From Haloparvum sedimenti (GTDB taxonomy: Archaea > Halobacteriota > Halobacteria > Halobacteriales > Haloferacaceae), in assembly GCF_001462205.1 (NCBI RefSeq), contig NZ_LKIR01000089.1:53902-96635 (forward strand): 42,734 nucleotides of DNA, in the 5' to 3' direction. Numbering within the stretch: position 1 is the first letter of the stretch; every line of letters starts with the position of its first letter. Positions 2,377 to 35,187 of this stretch are shown piece after piece. Under the pieces are notes generated by a model that made no database searches, was not told where the DNA came from, and saw only the letters and a program-made list of their open reading frames with translations. Both the position numbers and the translations under genes were made by a program.

Positions 2377-2502
2377 GATATCGCATGATTCGGACCGATC
2401 GCTTCGAAATGAATGAGGATAGTTAACACATAACTGTCTCGCGAAGCCGAGCCGGCCGCCGGCTCCGAAGTCCCTAAGGAGAGCGCGACCCTTCTCTCGG
2501 GC

Positions 2503-3372
2503 ATGCAGGCGCTCGTCATCGTGGCTCACGGGTCTCATCTCAATCCGGATTCGAGCACGCCCACCTACCGGCACGCGGACACGATCCGCGCGACCGGCGC
2601 GTTCGACGAGGTGCGCACCGGCTTCTGGAAGGAGGAGCCGCACCTCAGGGAGGTGCTCAGAACGACCGAGGCCGACGAGGTGTACGTCGTCCCGCTGTTC
2701 GTCTCGGAGGGGTACTTCACCGAGCAGGTGATCCCCCGCGAACTCCGCCTCTCCGGGTGGGACGTCGAGCAGTGGGGGTCGGACGGACTCTCCGCGGACC
2801 AGGCCACGCTGACGGCCGCGGACACCGGCCAGACGGTCCACTACTGCGGCCCGGTGGGGACCCACGAGGCGATGACGGACGTGCTGGTCCGGCGCGCGGA
2901 GACGGTGACCGGCGACCCCGACGTGGGTGAGGGGTTCGGCTTCGCGGTCGTGGGCCACGGTACCGAGCGCAACGAGAACTCCGCGAAGGCGATCGAGTAC
3001 CACGCCGACCGCATCCGCGAGCTGGACCGCTTCGACGAGGTCCGCGCGCTCTACATGGACGAGGACCCCGAGGTCGACGACCTCCCGGAGTTCTTCGAGA
3101 GCGACGACGTGGTGCTCGTCCCGCTGTTCATCGCGGACGGCTTCCACACGCAGGAGGACATCCCCGAGGACGTCGGCCTCACCGACGACTACCGCGAGGG
3201 CTACGACGTGCCCGCCACCGTCGACGGCGTCCGGGTCTGGTACGCCGGCGCGGTCGGCACCGAACCGCTGCTGGCCGACGTGGTGCTCGAACGCGCCGCG
3301 GACGCGGGCGCGGACGTCGAGAACGCGCTGGAGTCGGTGCGCGAGACGACCCGCGTCGCCACGGGGGACTGA
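2503..3372 (+). CDS. cbiX: CbiX-like sirohydrochlorin cobaltochelatase, two-domain
   Basis: This 289-residue protein is built of two tandem CbiX/SirB halves, about residues 1-135 and 140-289. The halves start with IVAHGSH (His9) and VVGHGTE (His152) and each carries a VPLF(V/I)...G(Y/F)..(Q)...IP segment. The family inserts cobalt or a similar divalent metal into sirohydrochlorin for cobalamin synthesis. In the second half both expected metal-binding histidines are present, His152 and His215 (DGFHTQ). In the first half the second position reads EGYFTEQ, with no His, so the C-terminal half is probably the catalytic one. The ATG was chosen because the protein begins directly with the first beta strand. 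The next gene starts 3 nt after the stop, so the two are almost certainly one operon. Confidence 0.85.
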   Translation: MQALVIVAHGSHLNPDSSTPTYRHADTIRATGAFDEVRTGFWKEEPHLREVLRTTEADEVYVVPLFVSEGYFTEQVIPRELRLSGWDVEQWGSDGLSADQATLTAADTGQTVHYCGPVGTHEAMTDVLVRRAETVTGDPDVGEGFGFAVVGHGTERNENSAKAIEYHADRIRELDRFDEVRALYMDEDPEVDDLPEFFESDDVVLVPLFIADGFHTQEDIPEDVGLTDDYREGYDVPATVDGVRVWYAGAVGTEPLLADVVLERAADAGADVENALESVRETTRVATGD

Positions 3373-4591: not shown

Positions 4592-5160
4592 GCGAGGTAG
4601 CTCGCCGCCGCGGCCGCGAGGACGACGACCGCGGCGCCCGCCTGAACCAGCGGGCTGTCGACGGCGAGCGCGACGGCGACCGCCACGACGATCGCAACCG
4701 CCACCACCGCGACCGCGGTGACGCGCTCGCCGGTCAGGTGCTCGTCGACCGCCGCCGCGAGCGCCTCCGCCGGCGTCGGCTCCGGCTCCCGCTCCGGCGG
4801 CGAGGAGAGCGACTCGTCGACGATCACCGGCTGTTCGTTCCGCGGGCGCGGCTTGACCGCGAGCGTGACGTACTCCGTGGCCGCGCCGTGACCGACGACG
4901 ACCTTGAGCTTGCCCCGCACGGTGTCGTCGGGGTCGGTGGTCGTCACCTGGACGCGGGTGACACCCTCGCTCTCGACGTAGTGGTTCGTGGCGGTCAGCG
5001 TCGCCACCTCGGCGAGCGTGTCGTCGAGGTTGAGGTGGACGTGACTCGCCTGTCCGCGGTTGACGAGCGCGACGCTGAACGACCCCTGGGCGGCGAAGCG
5101 GGCGGGCGCCGCGATGGAGTGGACGCCGTCCCCGTTCAACTCGACCTGCAGCGTCGACAC
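4582..5160 (-). CDS. Conserved haloarchaeal protein with C-terminal membrane anchor
   Basis: This 192-residue protein has three parts. Residues 1-105 form a beta-strand-rich domain with an immunoglobulin- or CARDB-like look (SVALVNRGQASHVHLNLDD, TVRGKLKVVVGHG). Residues 106-145 are an acidic, Pro/Glu-rich linker. Residues 146-192 are two hydrophobic helices of mostly Ala and Val that should lie in the membrane. There is no N-terminal signal, so the soluble domain is probably cytoplasmic unless the helices insert the other way round. I recognise the type as a haloarchaeal protein of unknown function. A T-rich promoter element lies 24-30 nt upstream. It converges with the DR2241-like gene. Confidence 0.75.
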   Translation of the reverse strand: MSTLQVELNGDGVHSIAAPARFAAQGSFSVALVNRGQASHVHLNLDDTLAEVATLTATNHYVESEGVTRVQVTTTDPDDTVRGKLKVVVGHGAATEYVTLAVKPRPRNEQPVIVDESLSSPPEREPEPTPAEALAAAVDEHLTGERVTAVAVVAVAIVVAVAVALAVDSPLVQAGAAVVVLAAAAASYLAVR

Positions 5161-5183
5161 ATCCCGTCGTCGCGCCGACGCAT

Positions 5184-5190
5184 CAAAAAG
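5184..5190 (-). promoter_or_regulatory. TATA-like box for the membrane-anchored protein
   Basis: The minus strand reads CTTTTTG 24-30 nt before the ATG at 5160, a spacing that fits a leaderless haloarchaeal promoter. The rest of 5161-5301 has GC-rich partial inverted repeats and no gene. Confidence 0.4.
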
Positions 5191-5301
5191 GTTCAGTACG
5201 GCGGTTCGGTCCCCGACGCGGCGTCGCCACTCCGGTGTGGCGTCGCGGCGCTGACGCAGAGCACGACCGAGTCGGGTTCGCCGTCCGAGGGTCGGAACTC
5301 C

Positions 5302-5502
5302 CTACGCAGCCGCTTCCTCTTCCTCGCGCATGTCCGGCGGGAGGAGGTTCGGGATGCCGTCCTCGATGGGGTAGACCTCGCCGCACTCCGTGCAGGTCAG
5401 CGTCCCGGCGATGACCTCGCCGTCCTCGCGCTCCGTGGCGTCGAGTTCGAGGTCCTCCTTGTCCAGCGGGCAGCAGACGATGTCCAGCAGCGACTCCTTC
5501 AT
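5302..5502 (-). CDS. Trm112-like zinc-ribbon methyltransferase activator
   Basis: This 66-residue protein starts MKESLLDIVCCPLDK and has a second cysteine pair in TCTECGEVYPIEDGIPNLLP. That is the standard Trm112 / UPF0434 zinc-ribbon layout, and the YPI-x-DGIPNLLP ending is diagnostic. In archaea and eukaryotes Trm112 is a small partner that holds several tRNA, rRNA and release-factor methyltransferases in an active form. The ATG at 5502 gives the normal family length, and longer in-frame starts would add an unrelated Arg-rich tail. It lies 77 nt downstream of purA. A TATA-like GGCTTTTG about 28 nt upstream suggests it also has its own start. The acidic tail (REEEEAAA) is typical of halophiles. 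Confidence 0.88.
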   Translation of the reverse strand: MKESLLDIVCCPLDKEDLELDATEREDGEVIAGTLTCTECGEVYPIEDGIPNLLPPDMREEEEAAA

Positions 5503-25885: not shown

Positions 25886-26881
25886 ATGAGCGTTCCCTGC
25901 CTCGCCGTCGCTCGCGAGCATGGCGAGACCGTCCGGAGCCGCCTCGCCGAGGCGGACGCGCTCGACGGCGATCACGAGATCACCGTCGAGGGCGACACGA
26001 TCTACATCCCGGTCACGGACCCGGCCGCGGTGCCCGGAGACCTGGAGGGAGAGGTCGTCGAGCGCGATCCGGCGGCCCGGGAGTCCCCGGAGTCGCCCGC
26101 GGACATCCTCGGCTACGAGCCCTCCATCGAGCGCCTCGGCGACGTGGTGATCCTCGACGAGGACGACCCCGAGCGCGCCGCGGAGATCGCGGAGGCGGTG
26201 CTGGCCTCGCACGTCCCCTGCGAGACTGTCGTGAACCGTGCGTCGCCCATCGAGGGCGAGCTGCGCGTCCGACGGTGGGAAGTGCTGGCCGGGAACGGCA
26301 CCGAGACCGTCCACCGAGAGTACGGCCACGAGTTCCTGCTCGACATCGCGGAGGTGTACTTCTCGCCGCGGCTCGCCACGGAGCGCCACCGCGTGACCGA
26401 GCAGGTCGACGCCGGCGAGCACGCGTTCGACATGTTCGCTGGCGTCGGCCCCTACGCGGTGCCGATGGCCGCGAAGGGCGCCGAGGTGGTCGCCTGCGAC
26501 CTCAACGAGCGCGCGGTCGCGTACCTGCGGGAGAACGCCGAGCGCAACGGCGTCGCCGACCGGATCACCGCGATTCAGGGGGACGTGCGCGAGGTCGCCG
26601 AGGACTGGACGGGGTGGGCGGACCGACTGGTGATGAACCTCCCCCACTCCGCGGACGAGTTCCTCGACGCCGCGGTCGCGCTCGCGGGCGAGGAGTGCGT
26701 GCTCCACTACTACGACATCCAGCACGAGGACGACCCCTTTGGGCCGGGCGAGCGCGCCATCCGCGAGGCGGTCGCGGACGCGGGCGGCGAGTACGAGGTG
26801 ACCGTCGAGACCGAGCACGTCGTCCGGTCGTACGCGCCACACGAGCTGAACGTCTGTCTGGACGTGCGACTGGAGACGTAG
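25886..26881 (+). CDS. trm5: tRNA (guanine37-N1)-methyltransferase Trm5
   Basis: Trm5 methylates N1 of G37 next to the anticodon, which prevents frameshifting; in archaea it also supplies the first step of wyosine synthesis. This 331-residue protein has an N-terminal D1-like domain (residues 1-60, SVPCLAVAREHGETVRSRL), the DILGYEPSIERLGDVVILDED linker region, a YFSPRLATERHRV segment, motif I FDMFAGVGPYAVPMAA with AKGAEVVACDLNE after it, and the catalytic NLPHSADEFLD block. The last 60 residues (YDIQHEDDP...) are as in archaeal Trm5. ATG 25886 gives the family start; a longer in-frame start would add an Arg-rich tail. Confidence 0.88.
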   Translation: MSVPCLAVAREHGETVRSRLAEADALDGDHEITVEGDTIYIPVTDPAAVPGDLEGEVVERDPAARESPESPADILGYEPSIERLGDVVILDEDDPERAAEIAEAVLASHVPCETVVNRASPIEGELRVRRWEVLAGNGTETVHREYGHEFLLDIAEVYFSPRLATERHRVTEQVDAGEHAFDMFAGVGPYAVPMAAKGAEVVACDLNERAVAYLRENAERNGVADRITAIQGDVREVAEDWTGWADRLVMNLPHSADEFLDAAVALAGEECVLHYYDIQHEDDPFGPGERAIREAVADAGGEYEVTVETEHVVRSYAPHELNVCLDVRLET

Positions 26882-26985
26882 GACGGTGTAGCGGTTGGTG
26901 GGCGTGTGAGTTGAGTCGTTTTCTGTTTCACAAAGCCCCCCTGCTTTGCCATCGCTAACACCGAGAAAGCCCTCGACCGCTCGCG

Positions 26986-27050
26986 GTCGCTGCGCGACAT
27001 ATCCGCGCCTCTCAACACCGCCCGGCGCGGATAGGGGTCGACGCAGCGAC
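26986..27050. repeat. Long imperfect stem-loop
   Basis: The outer arms GTCGCTGCG (26986-26994) and CGCAGCGAC (27042-27050) pair perfectly, continue as CGAC / GTCG with one bulged A, then after a small internal loop TATCCGCGCC (27000-27009) pairs with GGCGCGGATA (27024-27033). The end loop is 14 nt. In all about 23 base pairs are possible in 65 nt. Confidence 0.8.
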
Positions 27051-27185
27051 TCCCCTCCGGCGCGACCGGCCTCGCCCTTTCAGTCCGCCAGGCCGGCGGT
27101 CTTCTGTTTGTGTCGTCGCAGCCGGTTGTTGGTGAGTCGTACGTCGGCTGTCGAGTCGAGCATCGCCTCACGCCTCCCCAGCCTC

Positions 27186-27240
27186 GGGTCTTCCGCGGCC
27201 GCGGAACCGCACAGCACCGCAGCGCGGCCGCGGAAGACCC
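27186..27240. repeat. Perfect 18-bp inverted repeat
   Basis: GGGTCTTCCGCGGCCGCG (27186-27203) and its exact complement at 27223-27240 are separated by 19 nt. The left arm with the next bases also holds a perfect 16-bp palindrome centred on GGCC. Such length without mismatch is well beyond what occurs by chance even at this GC content. Confidence 0.9.
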
Positions 27241-27247
27241 TCCCTCG

Positions 27248-27266
27248 CGCGGTCGCGGCGACCGCG
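27248..27266. repeat. 8-bp hairpin
   Basis: CGCGGTCG (27248-27255) and CGACCGCG (27259-27266) with a 3-nt loop lie 8 nt after the long inverted repeat, adding a third structure to the cluster. Confidence 0.7.
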
Positions 27267-27376
27267 GAGCGCGTCGCCGCGGCGCGCGCCGACGTGGGAC
27301 AGCCGGTGCGTTGTCGCCGGATCGCTCGGACGAATCGGCGTGCGCCACCCTGACGCAGTGGCCCGATTCCGGAACC

Positions 27377-27383
27377 CTTATTT
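27377..27383 (+). promoter_or_regulatory. TATA-like box for tRNA-Thr
   Basis: CTTATTT, preceded by CCGGAACC, lies about 31-37 nt before the mature tRNA end at 27414. This fits a transcript starting a few bases before the tRNA. Confidence 0.55.
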
Positions 27384-27413
27384 CCTTCATCGGGGTACGT
27401 GGAGGTACGTCGC

Positions 27414-27486
27414 GCCGGAGTAGCTCAGCTGGCAGAGCGATTCCTTCGTAAGGAATAGGTCGAGGGTTCAAATCCCTCCTCCGGCT
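27414..27486 (+). tRNA. tRNA-Thr (anticodon CGT)
   Basis: A complete 73-nt cloverleaf without intron. The acceptor stem GCCGGAG (27414-27420) pairs with CTCCGGC (27479-27485), and discriminator T follows at 27486. The D stem is GCTC/GAGC, the anticodon stem ATTCC/GGAAT encloses loop TTCGTAA with anticodon CGT, and the T stem GAGGG/CCCTC encloses TTCAAAT. The CCA end is not encoded. It reads ACG threonine codons, which are common in this GC-rich genome. Confidence 0.97.
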
Positions 27487-30219: not shown

Positions 30220-30444
30220 CTCGCGGAACTGGTCCCCCACGCTGCGACCGAAACCGAACGGTTGATCACACGGATCTCCCAATCTCCTTCCCGATCGGGT
30301 TTACAATATAAACCTAAATAGCAAAATATCTGGAGAGGAAGCTGTTCTTCTCCCCCTGAATGCCTTCGATATTCAAAAATACATGCCATCGATGTCCGAG
30401 TGTCTACCCATGTGCATCAATGCCAGTCCCTGAAGAATAATGAC

Positions 30445-30494
30445 CTAATATTCCCTAATGGGTGGGTAAGGCACCCTACCCATATCAGGGTTAG
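30445..30494. promoter_or_regulatory. Large imperfect palindrome, likely gltB operator
   Basis: CTAA..CCCT.ATGGGT (from 30445) faces ACCCAT..AGGG.TTAG (to 30494). The best pairing has ATGGGTGGGT at 30458-30467 with ACCCTACCCAT at 30473-30483, and CTAA with TTAG at the ends. It ends 4 nt before the TATA box, a position where a bound dimer would govern polymerase loading. CTACCCAT within it (30476-30483) also occurs at 30404-30411. Confidence 0.5.
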
Positions 30495-30497
30495 TCC

Positions 30498-30503
30498 TTT
30501 AAG
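30498..30503 (+). promoter_or_regulatory. TATA box for gltB
   Basis: TTTAAG lies 23-28 nt before the ATG at 30526, supporting that ATG as the start of a leaderless mRNA. Confidence 0.6.
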
Positions 30504-30525
30504 CCGAAACTCGCTTGCTTGGTGT

Positions 30526-33500
30526 ATGACCAAGCCACACAGTAACACCCTCGACCCGGACGCGTCCGGGTCGGCGGGTCGCGACGCGGAGGCGAGCGGA
30601 GACGGGCTCGCGTCGCCGGACGACGACCGATCGAACTGCGGCGTCGGCGGAGTCGTCGACCTCGCGGGAGAACCGAGCCACGACACCGTCGCCGACGCCG
30701 TCTCACTGCTGGAGAACCTCCAGCACCGCGGGACGACGGGCGCGGAGCCGAACACCGGCGACGGCGCCGGGATCATGGTCGAGCGCCCGGACGGCTTCTT
30801 CGAGGCCGTCGTGGACGCCGACCTGCCCGACGAGTACGCGGTCGGCTCGCTGTTCATGCCCGAGGATCCGGCCGCGGAGGCGGCGCTCCACGAGGTCGTC
30901 GCGGAGACGTTCGCCGAGTACGGCCTCGAGGTGCTCGCGTGGCGCGAGGTCCCCACCGACGCCGACGAAGCCGACCTGGGCGCGACCGCGCTGGACTCGG
31001 AACCGAACGTCGTACAGGTGTTCGTCGCTCCCGCCTCCGACGCCGACCTCGATTCGCGCTTCACCGACGACGAGACCGACGACACGGACGAGAATCCCCA
31101 CCTCGGCTTCGACCGCGCGCTCTACGTCGCCCGGAAGGCCGTCGAGTCGGCCGCCGCGGACGTGGAGGGCGGCGAACGCTTCTACGTCTGCTCGCTCGAC
31201 CGCCGCCGCGTCGTCTACAAGGGTCTGCTGAAGGGCGACCAGCTGGCCACCTACTTCCCCGACCTCTCCGACGAGCGGTTCGCGAGCCGGGTCGCGCTGG
31301 TCCACGCCCGCTTCTCGACGAACACGCTCGGCGCGTGGCACCTCGCGCACCCGTACCGCAACATCGTCCACAACGGCGAGTTCAACACGATCCAGGGCAA
31401 CATCAACTGGATGCGCGCGCGGGAGACGGACGTCTCCCACCCCGGCTTCGGCGCGGACCTGGAGACGGTCAAGCCGGTCATCGACGACCCGAACCAGTCC
31501 GACACCGCCAGCGTCGACAACGCCGTCGAGCTCCTGCTCCAGACCGGTCGCGACCTCCCGCACGCGCTCCGGATGCTGATCCCGGAGGCGTTCCGCGGCG
31601 ACGACCTGATGAGCGAGGAGCGCGCCGACTGGTACGACTACCACGCCTCGCTGGTCGAGCCGTGGGACGGCCCGGCGCTGGTGATCGGCTTCGACGGCGA
31701 CCGCGTCGCGGGCGTCCTCGACCGGAACGGGCTGCGCCCGTGTCGCTACGAGGTGACGAGCGACGACCGCCTCATCGTCGGCTCGGAGGTGGGCGCGATC
31801 CCGACCGACCCCGGCGAGGTCGAGTCCCGCGGCCGCCTCCAGCCCGGCGAGATCTTCGTCGCGGACTTAGAAAGCGGTCGGGTCGTCCCCGACGACGAGG
31901 TCTTTGACGACCTCACCGACGAGAAGTACGGCGAGTGGGTCGACGAGGAACAGGCCGCCCTTGAGGAGGTCGCGGCCGAGACGGGCGACGCCGCGGCGGA
32001 CGCGGACGACGCCGATCCGGCCGAGCCCACCGTCGAGGAGGTGCGCGCCCACCAGGCCGCGTTCGGCTACACGACCGACTCGCTGAACCACCTCGTCGAG
32101 CCGATGGCCGAACAGGGGAAGGACCCGGTCGGCTCGATGGGCGACGACACGCCCCTCTCGGTGCTGACGGAGGTCGACCGCCCGCTGTTCACCTACTTCA
32201 AACAGCTGTTCGCGCAGGTGTCGAACCCGCCCATCGACTACATCCGCGAGGAACTCGTCACCTCGCTGGAGTCGCGGCTCGGCTTCCAGCGCAACCTGCT
32301 GGACGAGTCGGCCGACCACGCCCGCCAGATCGTCTGCGACTCCCCGGTCCTCACCGAGGCGGAGACGGCCTCGCTGAAGGCGCTCGGCGACGATCCGGAC
32401 GACGCCTTCGAGAGCGCGGTCGTCGACGCGACGTTCGACCCGGACACCGACCTCGCGGACGCGGTCGCCCGCCTGCGCGACGACGCGGCCGCGGCCATCG
32501 AGGCCGGCGCGGACGTGGTCGTCGTCTCCGACCGCGCGGTCGGCCCGGACCGGCTCGCCATCCCGAGCCTGCTGGCGACCGGGGCGGTCCACCACCACCT
32601 CGTTCGCAACGGGCTCCGCAACCACGCCGGCCTCGTCGTCGAGTCGGGCGAACCCCACGAGGTCCACCACCTCGCCACGCTGGTCGGCTACGGCGCCGGC
32701 GCGGTGACGCCGTACCTCGCGTACGACTCCATCCGCGACACGGTCGCGGGGCCGGACGGCGCGGACGCCGACGAGGCCCTCGCGGCGTACAGAAAGGCGC
32801 TGGAGGACGGCCTGCTGAAGACGATGGCGAAGATGGGCATCTCCACGGTGGAGTCGTACCAGGTCGCCCAGATCTTCGAGGCGGTCGGGCTCGACTCCGA
32901 CTTCGTCGGCGAGTACTTCGAGGGGACGGAGATCAGGACCGAGGGGATCGGCGTCGACGAGATCGAGGGCGACCTCCGCGCCCGCCACGCGATGGCGTTC
33001 GGCGCTGACCCTCAGCTGGAGACCACCGGCGAGTACGAGCACCGCTCCTCGGGCGTGAAACACGGCTGGAACCCGCAGACGGTCGGCACGCTCCAGCAGG
33101 CGGTCCGCGCGGGCGACTACGAGCAGTACGAGGAGTTCGCCGACCTGGTCAACGACCAGTCCGAGAGCCTCCAGACGCTGCGCGGCCTGCTCGAGTTCGA
33201 CTCCGACCGCGACCCGGTTCCGGTCGAGGAGGTGGAGCCGGTCGAGGAGATCGTCGAGCGCTTCTCGACGGCCGCGATGAGCCTCGGGAGCCTCTCGCCG
33301 GAGGCCCACGAGAACAACTCCATCGCGATGAACCGCCTCGGCGCCAAGTCCAACACGGGCGAGGGCGGCGAGCCGCCGGAGCGGTTCGACACCGAGCGCG
33401 AGTGCAACGTCAAGCAGGTCGCCTCCGGCCGATTCGGCGTCACCGCGGAGTACCTCGCGAGCGCCGACGAGCTGCAGATCAAGATGGCGCAGGGCTCCAA

Positions 33501-35187
33501 GCCCGGCGAGGGGGGGCACCTCCCCGGCGAGAAGGTCAACGAGATGATCGCACACGTCCGGTGTTCGACGCCCGGCGTGGGGCTCATCTCGCCGCCGCCC
33601 CAGCACGACATCTACTCCATCGAGGACCTCAAGCAGCTGATCTACGACCTGAAGGCGGCCAACCCCGAGGCGGACGTGAACGTCAAGCTCGTCTCGGAGG
33701 CCGGCATCGGCACCATCGCCGCGGGCGTCGCGAAGGCGAACGCGGACGTGGTCCACGTCTCCGGGCACTCCGGCGGCACCGGCGCGTCGCCGAAGACCTC
33801 GATCAAGAACGCGGGCCTACCGTGGGAGCTCGGGCTCGCGGAGGCGAACCAGATGCTCCGCGCGACCGGCCTGCGCGACCGCATCCGGGTCACCGCGGAC
33901 GGCGGGCTCAAGACCGGCCGCGACGTGGCCGTCGCCGCCCTCCTCGGCGCGGAGGAGTACGTCTTCGGCACCGCCTCGCTGGTCACCTCCGGCTGCGTGA
34001 TGGCCCGGCAGTGTCACGAGAACACCTGTCCGGTCGGCGTCGCCACCCAGCGCGAGGACCTGCGCAAGCGGTTCCCCGGCGAGCCGGAGCACGTCATCAA
34101 CTACATGACGTTCATCGCGCAGGAGCTGCGCGAGATCATGGCCGAGCTCGGCTACACCGACCTCGAGGAGTTCATCGGCCGGCCCGACCTGCTGACCCAG
34201 CGCGAGACCGACCACGAGAAGGCGAGCCACCTCGACCTGTCGGCGGTCATCGCCGACCCGGCGGGCGACGTGCGCACGAAGATCCGCGAGCAGCGCCACG
34301 AGGAGGTCGCGACCGCGCTCGACTGGGACCTCATCGACGCCGCCGAACCCGCCCTCGCGGAGGGCAAGCCGGTGACCGTCTCCGAGGACGTGACGAACGT
34401 CGACCGCGCGGTCGGCGCGACGCTCTCGAACCGCGTCGCCTCCGAGTACGGCGGCGAGGGTCTCCCGGACGACACGATCACCTGCGACCTCGACGGCTAC
34501 GCGGGCCAGAGCTTCGGCGCGTTCCTCGCCCGCGGCGTCACGATGGACCTGACCGGCGCCGCCAACGACTACGTCGGCAAGGGCCTGTCGGGCGGGAAAG
34601 TCGTCCTCCGGACGCCCGCGGACGCGGGTTACGACCCCGCCGACAACGTCGTCGCGGGCAACGTCTGCCTGTACGGCGCGACCGCGGGCGAGACGTACGT
34701 CAACGGCGTCGCGGGCGAGCGCTTCGCGGTGCGCAACTCCGGCGTGAAGGCGGTCGTCGAGGGCGTCGGCGACCACGGCTGCGAGTACATGACCGGCGGC
34801 GTCGTCGCGGTGCTGGGCGAGTTCGGCCGCAACTTCGCGGCCGGGATGTCCGGCGGCGTGGCGTACGTCCACGACCCCGACGGCGAGCTGGCCGAGAAGG
34901 CCAACACCGGGATGGTGACGCTCTCCGAGGACCTCTCCGAGCGCGACGAGGAGATGCTCCGGCGGCTGGTGGAGAACCACGCCGCCTACACCGACAGCGC
35001 ACGCGCGCGGGAACTGCTCGACGACTGGGCGAACGCGGTCGAGGCGTTCACGCGCGTCCTCCCGGACGCCTACGCGGACGTCATCGCGGAGGGAATCGGC
35101 GACGACGTGCGCGAGGAGCTTCCGGACGCGGCCGAGGCGGGCGCCAGCGTCCACGGCGACGCCGGCGCGGTCTCGGGCGACGACTGA
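30526..35187 (+). CDS. gltB: Glutamate synthase, large subunit (ferredoxin-type)
   Basis: GltB makes two glutamates from glutamine and 2-oxoglutarate. This 1553-residue protein has a glutamine amidotransferase domain starting at Cys38 (NCGVGGVVDL), with HARFSTNTLGAWHLAHPYR and HNGEFNTIQGNINWM. A central region follows, then the FMN-binding synthase domain (about 870-1240) with GSLSPEAHENNSIAMNRLG and GEGGHLPGEKV, and a 3Fe-4S cluster motif Cys-x5-Cys-x4-Cys in CVMARQCHENTCPVG near residue 1157. The GXGXG-repeat domain ends the protein. No gltD is adjacent, so ferredoxin is the probable electron donor, as in other haloarchaea. The first 37 residues are a removable leader or lack function. Confidence 0.95.
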   Translation: MTKPHSNTLDPDASGSAGRDAEASGDGLASPDDDRSNCGVGGVVDLAGEPSHDTVADAVSLLENLQHRGTTGAEPNTGDGAGIMVERPDGFFEAVVDADLPDEYAVGSLFMPEDPAAEAALHEVVAETFAEYGLEVLAWREVPTDADEADLGATALDSEPNVVQVFVAPASDADLDSRFTDDETDDTDENPHLGFDRALYVARKAVESAAADVEGGERFYVCSLDRRRVVYKGLLKGDQLATYFPDLSDERFASRVALVHARFSTNTLGAWHLAHPYRNIVHNGEFNTIQGNINWMRARETDVSHPGFGADLETVKPVIDDPNQSDTASVDNAVELLLQTGRDLPHALRMLIPEAFRGDDLMSEERADWYDYHASLVEPWDGPALVIGFDGDRVAGVLDRNGLRPCRYEVTSDDRLIVGSEVGAIPTDPGEVESRGRLQPGEIFVADLESGRVVPDDEVFDDLTDEKYGEWVDEEQAALEEVAAETGDAAADADDADPAEPTVEEVRAHQAAFGYTTDSLNHLVEPMAEQGKDPVGSMGDDTPLSVLTEVDRPLFTYFKQLFAQVSNPPIDYIREELVTSLESRLGFQRNLLDESADHARQIVCDSPVLTEAETASLKALGDDPDDAFESAVVDATFDPDTDLADAVARLRDDAAAAIEAGADVVVVSDRAVGPDRLAIPSLLATGAVHHHLVRNGLRNHAGLVVESGEPHEVHHLATLVGYGAGAVTPYLAYDSIRDTVAGPDGADADEALAAYRKALEDGLLKTMAKMGISTVESYQVAQIFEAVGLDSDFVGEYFEGTEIRTEGIGVDEIEGDLRARHAMAFGADPQLETTGEYEHRSSGVKHGWNPQTVGTLQQAVRAGDYEQYEEFADLVNDQSESLQTLRGLLEFDSDRDPVPVEEVEPVEEIVERFSTAAMSLGSLSPEAHENNSIAMNRLGAKSNTGEGGEPPERFDTERECNVKQVASGRFGVTAEYLASADELQIKMAQGSKPGEGGHLPGEKVNEMIAHVRCSTPGVGLISPPPQHDIYSIEDLKQLIYDLKAANPEADVNVKLVSEAGIGTIAAGVAKANADVVHVSGHSGGTGASPKTSIKNAGLPWELGLAEANQMLRATGLRDRIRVTADGGLKTGRDVAVAALLGAEEYVFGTASLVTSGCVMARQCHENTCPVGVATQREDLRKRFPGEPEHVINYMTFIAQELREIMAELGYTDLEEFIGRPDLLTQRETDHEKASHLDLSAVIADPAGDVRTKIREQRHEEVATALDWDLIDAAEPALAEGKPVTVSEDVTNVDRAVGATLSNRVASEYGGEGLPDDTITCDLDGYAGQSFGAFLARGVTMDLTGAANDYVGKGLSGGKVVLRTPADAGYDPADNVVAGNVCLYGATAGETYVNGVAGERFAVRNSGVKAVVEGVGDHGCEYMTGGVVAVLGEFGRNFAAGMSGGVAYVHDPDGELAEKANTGMVTLSEDLSERDEEMLRRLVENHAAYTDSARARELLDDWANAVEAFTRVLPDAYADVIAEGIGDDVREELPDAAEAGASVHGDAGAVSGDD

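Follow-up and report, generated by a model that had tools for sequence, protein, structure and literature searches.

What is the cluster of strong palindromes that fills the gap upstream of tRNA-Thr in the Haloparvum sedimenti window (i.e., the whole stretch of 42,734 nt analysed here)? The first-pass annotation counted four successive stem-loops in a gene-free region of about 530 nt and offered three readings, namely a structured non-coding RNA, an excision scar, or the remains of a small non-autonomous element inserted near a tRNA gene, a common integration target. The region is indeed 532 nt long, from the stop of a Trm5-like gene (26881) to tRNA-Thr(CGT) (27414), and holds no credible gene. 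The 6-bp hairpin at 26931 and the perfect 18-bp inverted repeat had been placed exactly (arms 27186-27203 and 27223-27240, 19-nt loop). The nested stem reported at 26986-27050 is paired, but is only the inner part of a longer hairpin (HP1), closed by GAAAG/CTTTC. A hairpin is also present around 27248-27266, but the proposed 8-bp register needs correcting: its loop would be 1 nt, so it is better read within a longer hairpin (HP3), the register of which is kept in other copies of the family described below.

The cluster also stands out from its surroundings, as had been claimed: the 18-bp repeat is the sole perfect inverted repeat in the 42.7 kb whose arms reach 12 nt or more, and the longest arm obtained by shuffling was 13 nt (six Markov shuffles of the window) or 12 nt (300 shuffles of the region). 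Folding of 26931-27296 was better than in 100 of 100 dinucleotide shuffles (z of -4.9 as DNA, -5.4 as plus-strand RNA, and -3.6 as minus-strand RNA). Chance palindromes in GC-rich DNA, which the high GC content (by inspection) would favor and the first-pass annotation had thought unlikely, are a negligible prospect, since the observed arm length was never reached in shuffles and parts of the cluster recur in hundreds of genomes. Elsewhere in the window, ARAGORN called a tRNA-Asp at 31471-31549 (minus strand) inside an open frame (30400-35187) with a glutamate synthase-like translation; this call is probably a false positive, as the Rfam tRNA model does not detect it.

A hairpin-rich repeat family and its architecture

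The palindromes beside tRNA-Thr are one of about 125 genomic copies of a non-coding, hairpin-rich DNA repeat. A BLAST search with 26882-27413 matched 85 places in the same genome, and the 13-nt box core CCTCCCCARCCTC, which directly precedes the 18-bp repeat, has 127 occurrences in the 3.24-Mb genome compared to 2 for the reversed control. The copy set used below comprises loci with 109 distinct copies taken from this genome, and the parts of the window copy are listed in Table 1.

Table 1. Parts of the window copy and its flanking genes (positions in the window)
Feature	Position	Strand	Basis and remarks
Trm5-like SAM-dependent methyltransferase, putative	25886..26881	+	Open frame; orthologues in 80 named haloarchaeal loci; named by family resemblance
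Whole element copy, incomplete, without terminal inverted repeats	26918..27306	+	Limits of similarity to same-genome copies
Remnant of ~75-nt 5' unit	26918..26964	+	Tandemly repeated in other copies; holds CAAAGC/GCTTTG hairpin 26931-26948
HP1, long hairpin	26965..27081	+	GAAAG/CTTTC closing, GCCC/GCCC unpaired, variable stem; covariation
Conserved HP1 3' tail CCCTTTCAGTCCGCCAGG (B-type form GCCCCTTTCAGTCCCACC)	27075..27092	+	B-type tail in 281 of 392 haloarchaeal genomes
Conserved box CCTCACGCCTCCCCAGCCTC	27166..27185	+	13-nt core count in genome versus control
HP2, perfect 18-bp inverted repeat, 19-nt loop	27186..27240	+	Compensatory changes, 63 distinct copies
HP3, GC-rich hairpin after CTCCCTCGCGCG	27246..27290	+	Same register in other copies
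tRNA-Thr(CGT), flanking gene	27414..27486	+	tRNA prediction

The copies share a common plan. Their 5' part consists of one to several ~75-nt units, each ending AGAAAGCCC..., followed by HP1, which opens with the same AGAAAGCCC and closes with GCCCTTTCAGTCC. The 3' part consists of a spacer (with CCGCA-like short repeats in many copies), the box, HP2, CTCCCTCGCGCG, and HP3. By eye, the 6-bp hairpin of the 5' unit pairs as CAAGCG/CGCTTG in other copies. Two subfamilies were recognized, A (the window type) and B, and in several cases an A copy has an inverted B copy behind it; the window copy itself is mixed, with an A-type 5' half and B-like HP2 and HP3.

Stem pairing and the question of RNA or DNA

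Between copies, stem sequences are replaced wholesale with pairing kept, and the hairpin bases are conserved in sequence. In HP2, 63 distinct arm pairs stay paired despite wholesale G-C/C-G switches at many positions (e.g., 23 versus 21 copies, 29 versus 17, and 30 versus 17 at three of them). The paired cells of HP1 amounted to 96.0% in the A copies of this genome (at most 91.4% in row-shuffled alignments), 98.6% in its B copies (at most 95.6%), 96.4% in the Halorubrum type (at most 87.2%), and 93.9% in other genera (at most 82.8%), and the cells changed on both sides numbered 41, 44, 72, and 48, respectively, against 25, 22, 40, and 20 in the best shuffle, with pair positions picked from the same alignments as tested, which favors them somewhat. 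Covariance analysis of the stems thus found compensatory change in HP2 and in every subgroup of HP1. The HP1 base is conserved as AAAGCCC/GCCCTTT, and its outermost pair, G-C in copies of this genome, is C-G in the Halorubrum type. At one Halorubrum locus (L284, box at 689, minus strand), HP2 has become a run of C and G (CCCCCCCCCCCCCCCCGGGGGGGGGGGG) and is still palindromic.

Deep structural conservation with free stem sequence, significant compensatory change, and the strong plus-strand RNA fold (z as above) are what a dispersed family of structured non-coding RNA genes would present, with copies transcribed and hairpins acting as RNA. That such elements can yield RNA is known from the Halorubrum virus HRTV-DL1, which carries a transcribed 489-bp PATE (PMC10544981). 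The balance of G.T over A.C mismatches, used to tell an RNA strand from DNA, gave no consistent answer on either strand: there were 34 G.T versus 30 A.C over 109 HP1s, 11/8, 67/7, 8/9, and 4/13 by HP1 subgroup, and 3 versus 10 at core HP2 positions (own tally). In 93 of the 109 HP1s, the more stable fold is that of the minus strand, an excess that loop composition may explain. Rfam models found only the tRNA in the window and nothing above the gathering score in the other tested copies, and even at E up to 5 there were only sub-threshold matches, mostly microRNA-like. The copies also vary in orientation relative to their neighbors. The initial suggestion of a structured RNA is in line with the strong covariation, but finds no backing in strand bias or Rfam, and we regard RNA genes as an unlikely explanation.

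Distribution, ends, and occupied and empty sites

Parts of the family recur across most haloarchaeal genera. With one mismatch allowed, matches to the HP1 tail GCCCCTTTSAGTCCCRCC came from 281 of 392 genomes, which represent 66 of 86 genera, and reached 186 per genome (7 control matches, own count). The 20-nt box, also with one mismatch allowed, is present in 74 of the 392 genomes of the class (5 control matches overall, own count). Box copies number 14-194 per genome in the genus g21, taken as Halorubrum by inference from named loci, and are patchy in other genera (e.g., 115 in G273, 43 in G281, 22 in G382, and 18 in G021), where the 3' module (box, HP2, and HP3) sits behind different 5' modules. 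In the genus g34, HP1 often occurs as two convergent copies ~25 nt apart. Despite this breadth of the tail and abundance of the box, neither matches Rfam. The phage collection gave no match to three query sequences from the family, leaving a virus origin without support.

Within the window's genome, 108 of 109 copies are intergenic. The gene pairs flanking them (n = 105) are convergent in 42 cases, tandem in 49, and divergent in 14, and 6 of 33 gene pairs in the window are convergent. This preference for convergent pairs, together with the strand-symmetric substitutions in HP1 stems, would fit chromosome-architecture or terminator-like repeats, i.e., protein-bound double-stranded palindromes or cruciform sites kept for function rather than mobility, for which the BIMEs of enterobacteria are the model. 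We consider such a role improbable, given the spread from 14 to 194 copies among putative Halorubrum genomes with patchy occurrence elsewhere, and the terminal inverted repeats of full-length copies.

These terminal inverted repeats (CGATACTGRGT/ACTCAGTATCG, reverse complement) are carried by about twelve B copies and by two composites of A and B. Full-length copies span ~400-1000 bp of intergenic DNA, and by eye no direct repeat flanks those with both ends, so that the target-site duplications considered at first were not seen. The window copy has lost its terminal inverted repeats and has no recognisable outer ends. Most of an element is still at the site, and an excision scar is accordingly not supported. 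Judged by eye, the outer ends vary by lineage, being CGATACTG here, TTGTTTATAAA-like in Halorubrum copies (L185 and L279), and AGTGTTTAGTTACG-like in g34. Copies are themselves targets of insertion: a whole IS200/IS605 element (TnpA and TnpB) sits in a B-type copy (L249, 1500-2300), its right end unlike the family and followed directly by element sequence, and ~60-nt double hairpins with CGTGCAGTAGCGCGC are inserted in the loops of HP1 and HP2 and elsewhere (39 in loci taken from this genome, including L005, L006, L014, L019, and L068).

Comparison of orthologous sites showed differences in occupancy. The box and HP1 tail are absent from the orthologous Trm5/tRNA-Thr gap in 44 named loci in which a tRNA-Thr lies downstream (Halorubrum, Halopenitus, Halobellus, and others), and the window copy is therefore particular to the window's lineage among the loci compared. 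At one orthologous intergenic site in g34, the state is occupied, reduced, or empty depending on the species: two convergent HP1s are found in G241 and G222, G234 and G267 retain a terminus only, one or both hairpins are gone in G280, G303, G179, G391, and G204, the HP1s are missing in G207, and the site is empty in G345. Such presence and absence between species could also result from deletion instead of transposition. In several g34 genomes, a hairpin was lost at the identical junction CAGAAAG^TCC, which is present as well at L066 and L131 in the genome of the window. Genome-wide, the junction motif has ~40 matches, not above control, and hairpin loss at this junction is thus a case observation from the orthologous locus and individual copies.

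In Halorubrum, the Trm5/tRNA-Thr gap holds another conserved stretch of ~300 nt (GGGCCCGTYACATGACAAG...CCCGGTACGGGCTC; L162 at ~5050-5500, also L164, L169, L176, L178, L180, and L186), and beyond its far end lies an AT-rich, TATA-like block. The stretch resembles an unannotated RNA gene; that of L162 had no Rfam match, and no counterpart was seen at the window's locus.

The position beside tRNA-Thr is most likely coincidental. A genome of this kind typically has about 47 tRNA genes, for which about three copies would be expected by chance to have a tRNA within 1 kb; a predicted tRNA lies within 1 kb of 5 of the 109 copies, and one of these predictions overlaps the element and is doubtful. The number is thus about that of chance, and tRNA-targeted integration, part of the original proposal, was rejected.

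We find it likely that the window feature is an incomplete copy from a family of non-autonomous, non-coding mobile DNA elements of haloarchaea, built of recurrent hairpin modules and moved in trans. The earlier idea of element remains is upheld by a high-copy dispersed family, site-specific absence in relatives, and terminal inverted repeats in full-length copies. Mechanistically, copies would spread by transposition into intergenic sites, for the most part at a distance from promoters, and an enzyme acting in trans would mobilize them. Common to all lineages are the AAAGCCC...GCCCTTT-CAGTCCC hairpin base and the CCTCACRCCTCCCCARCCTC box, with varying stems and outer ends. Because hairpin bases are kept and outer ends differ between lineages, the recombinase would recognize the hairpins in folded, single-stranded form, in the way that transposases of IS200/IS605 and integrases of integrons recognize their own sites. 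The copies contain no plausible gene, being too short for a transposase, and no mobilizing gene was found: the 14-nt terminal motif has 14 sites in the draft assembly, and all readable ones are within non-coding copies (with one site at a contig end), with no autonomous partner among them.

Relation to known elements and HP1 on plasmids

Haloquadratum has PATEs, MITEs, and SMRs (PMC3119063), and the present family behaves like all three, yet fails a defining feature of each. Like the PATEs of Haloquadratum walsbyi, its members are haloarchaeal, non-coding, a few hundred bp long, heterogeneous in sequence, rich in prominent palindromes, free of target duplication, and targets of other small elements; by contrast, PATEs have near-terminal palindromes in common with IS605-type transposons and no terminal inverted repeats (PMC3119063). 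A degenerate PATE derived from an IS200/IS605 transposon would suit the abundance of such elements in haloarchaea (PMC3119063), as well as the non-coding copies with palindromes near their ends and no target duplication. We judge this origin very improbable, because the full-length copies carry terminal inverted repeats, absent from PATEs by definition. Moreover, among the 13 loci of this genome that matched Y1 transposase or TnpB, the element appeared only where an IS605 had inserted into it, with a different IS right end; no IS605 end matched the element, and an IS605/PATE origin was rejected. A PATE is also known from HRTV-DL1, plasmid pR1SE, and Halorubrum lacusprofundi (PMC10544981), and resembles the family in its association with Halorubrum, its length (~490 bp), its non-coding nature, and its presence in host and mobile DNA; this comparison is by description only, and family queries had no match in the phage collection.

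The SMRs of Haloquadratum are alike in having terminal inverted repeats unrelated to known transposons and no target duplication, but they are 80-110 bp long and insert into palindromes of PATEs and IS605 (PMC3119063), whereas the present family is ~400-1000 bp long and itself the target of ~60-nt hairpin inserts. As to MITEs, terminal inverted repeats are present in roughly a dozen full-length copies from this genome (the window copy has none), and no target-site duplication was seen by eye in copies with both ends; with no target duplication and no known parent, the family is not a typical MITE.

REP/BIME repeats mobilized by RAYT transposases likewise form many dispersed intergenic hairpins, arranged in mosaics and with variable stems, but the modules of the present family are far longer. 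The draft genome showed no sign of a stand-alone RAYT (of three intact Y1_Tnp genes, two lie beside TnpB and the third at a locus ending at a contig end), and a RAYT/REP origin has no support in this Y1 transposase set. The attC sites of integrons, which have an RYYYAAC/GTTRRRY core and an associated IntI, offer a structural analogy in their hairpin, short conserved closing box, unpaired spacer, and variable stem; in contrast, the GAAAG/CTTTC closing box of HP1 is by inspection not the attC consensus, and no cassette genes are present.

A search of 5.39 million open-access papers gave no occurrence of the core sequences, and the haloarchaeal hairpin repeat appears to be a mobile-element-like family with no prior description found there. 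It may account for many unusual intergenic hairpins in haloarchaeal genomes and, if mobile, would imply a mobilizing enzyme at work across the class, the sites of which can now be listed.

HP1 also occurs alone, in the same orientation, ~450-600 nt upstream of an OB-fold DNA-binding protein gene on 11 plasmids, from Halopiger, Halomarina, Halobacterium DL1, Halobiforma, Haloprofundus, Natrinema, Natribaculum, DL31, Haladaptatus, Haloplanus, and Haloarcula marismortui. The majority of these plasmids were typed MPF_T, and on that of Natrinema, a "conjugal transfer protein" is encoded ~11 kb upstream of the OB-fold gene. The four OB-fold proteins tested matched PF01336 weakly (PF16900 in the case of Haloarcula), and a PDB search with one OB-fold protein showed a resemblance to 2kbn/2ken. 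From the gene arrangement, our guess is that HP1 has a role in single-stranded DNA stages of plasmid life. It is conceivable, if somewhat unlikely, that HP1, its base fixed and its stem free, serves throughout the class of haloarchaea as a folded-DNA signal for plasmid single-stranded DNA processes, for instance transfer or a lagging-strand start beside an OB-fold single-stranded DNA-binding gene, and that elements moving by this signal have colonized the chromosomes of numerous genera. Should HP1 be a signal for plasmid transfer or replication, it would provide a defined sequence handle on archaeal conjugation, a process of which, to our knowledge, little is understood.

Two further observations concern plasmids. 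The whole stretch of ~600 nt that separates HP1 from the OB-fold gene seems to be conserved and structured in different plasmid families (CGACCGACCATTCCGGGC... and GCGCGCTCTCGCTCGCGCCC palindromes; L313 at 2500-3160, L314, L315, L316, and L317), with no Rfam match for the L315 interval. On a Halorussus salilacus plasmid (L243, 2760-3130), three 54-nt tandem units, each ending AGAAAGCCCCC, precede HP1, so that tandem half-hairpin units are not peculiar to the window's genome.
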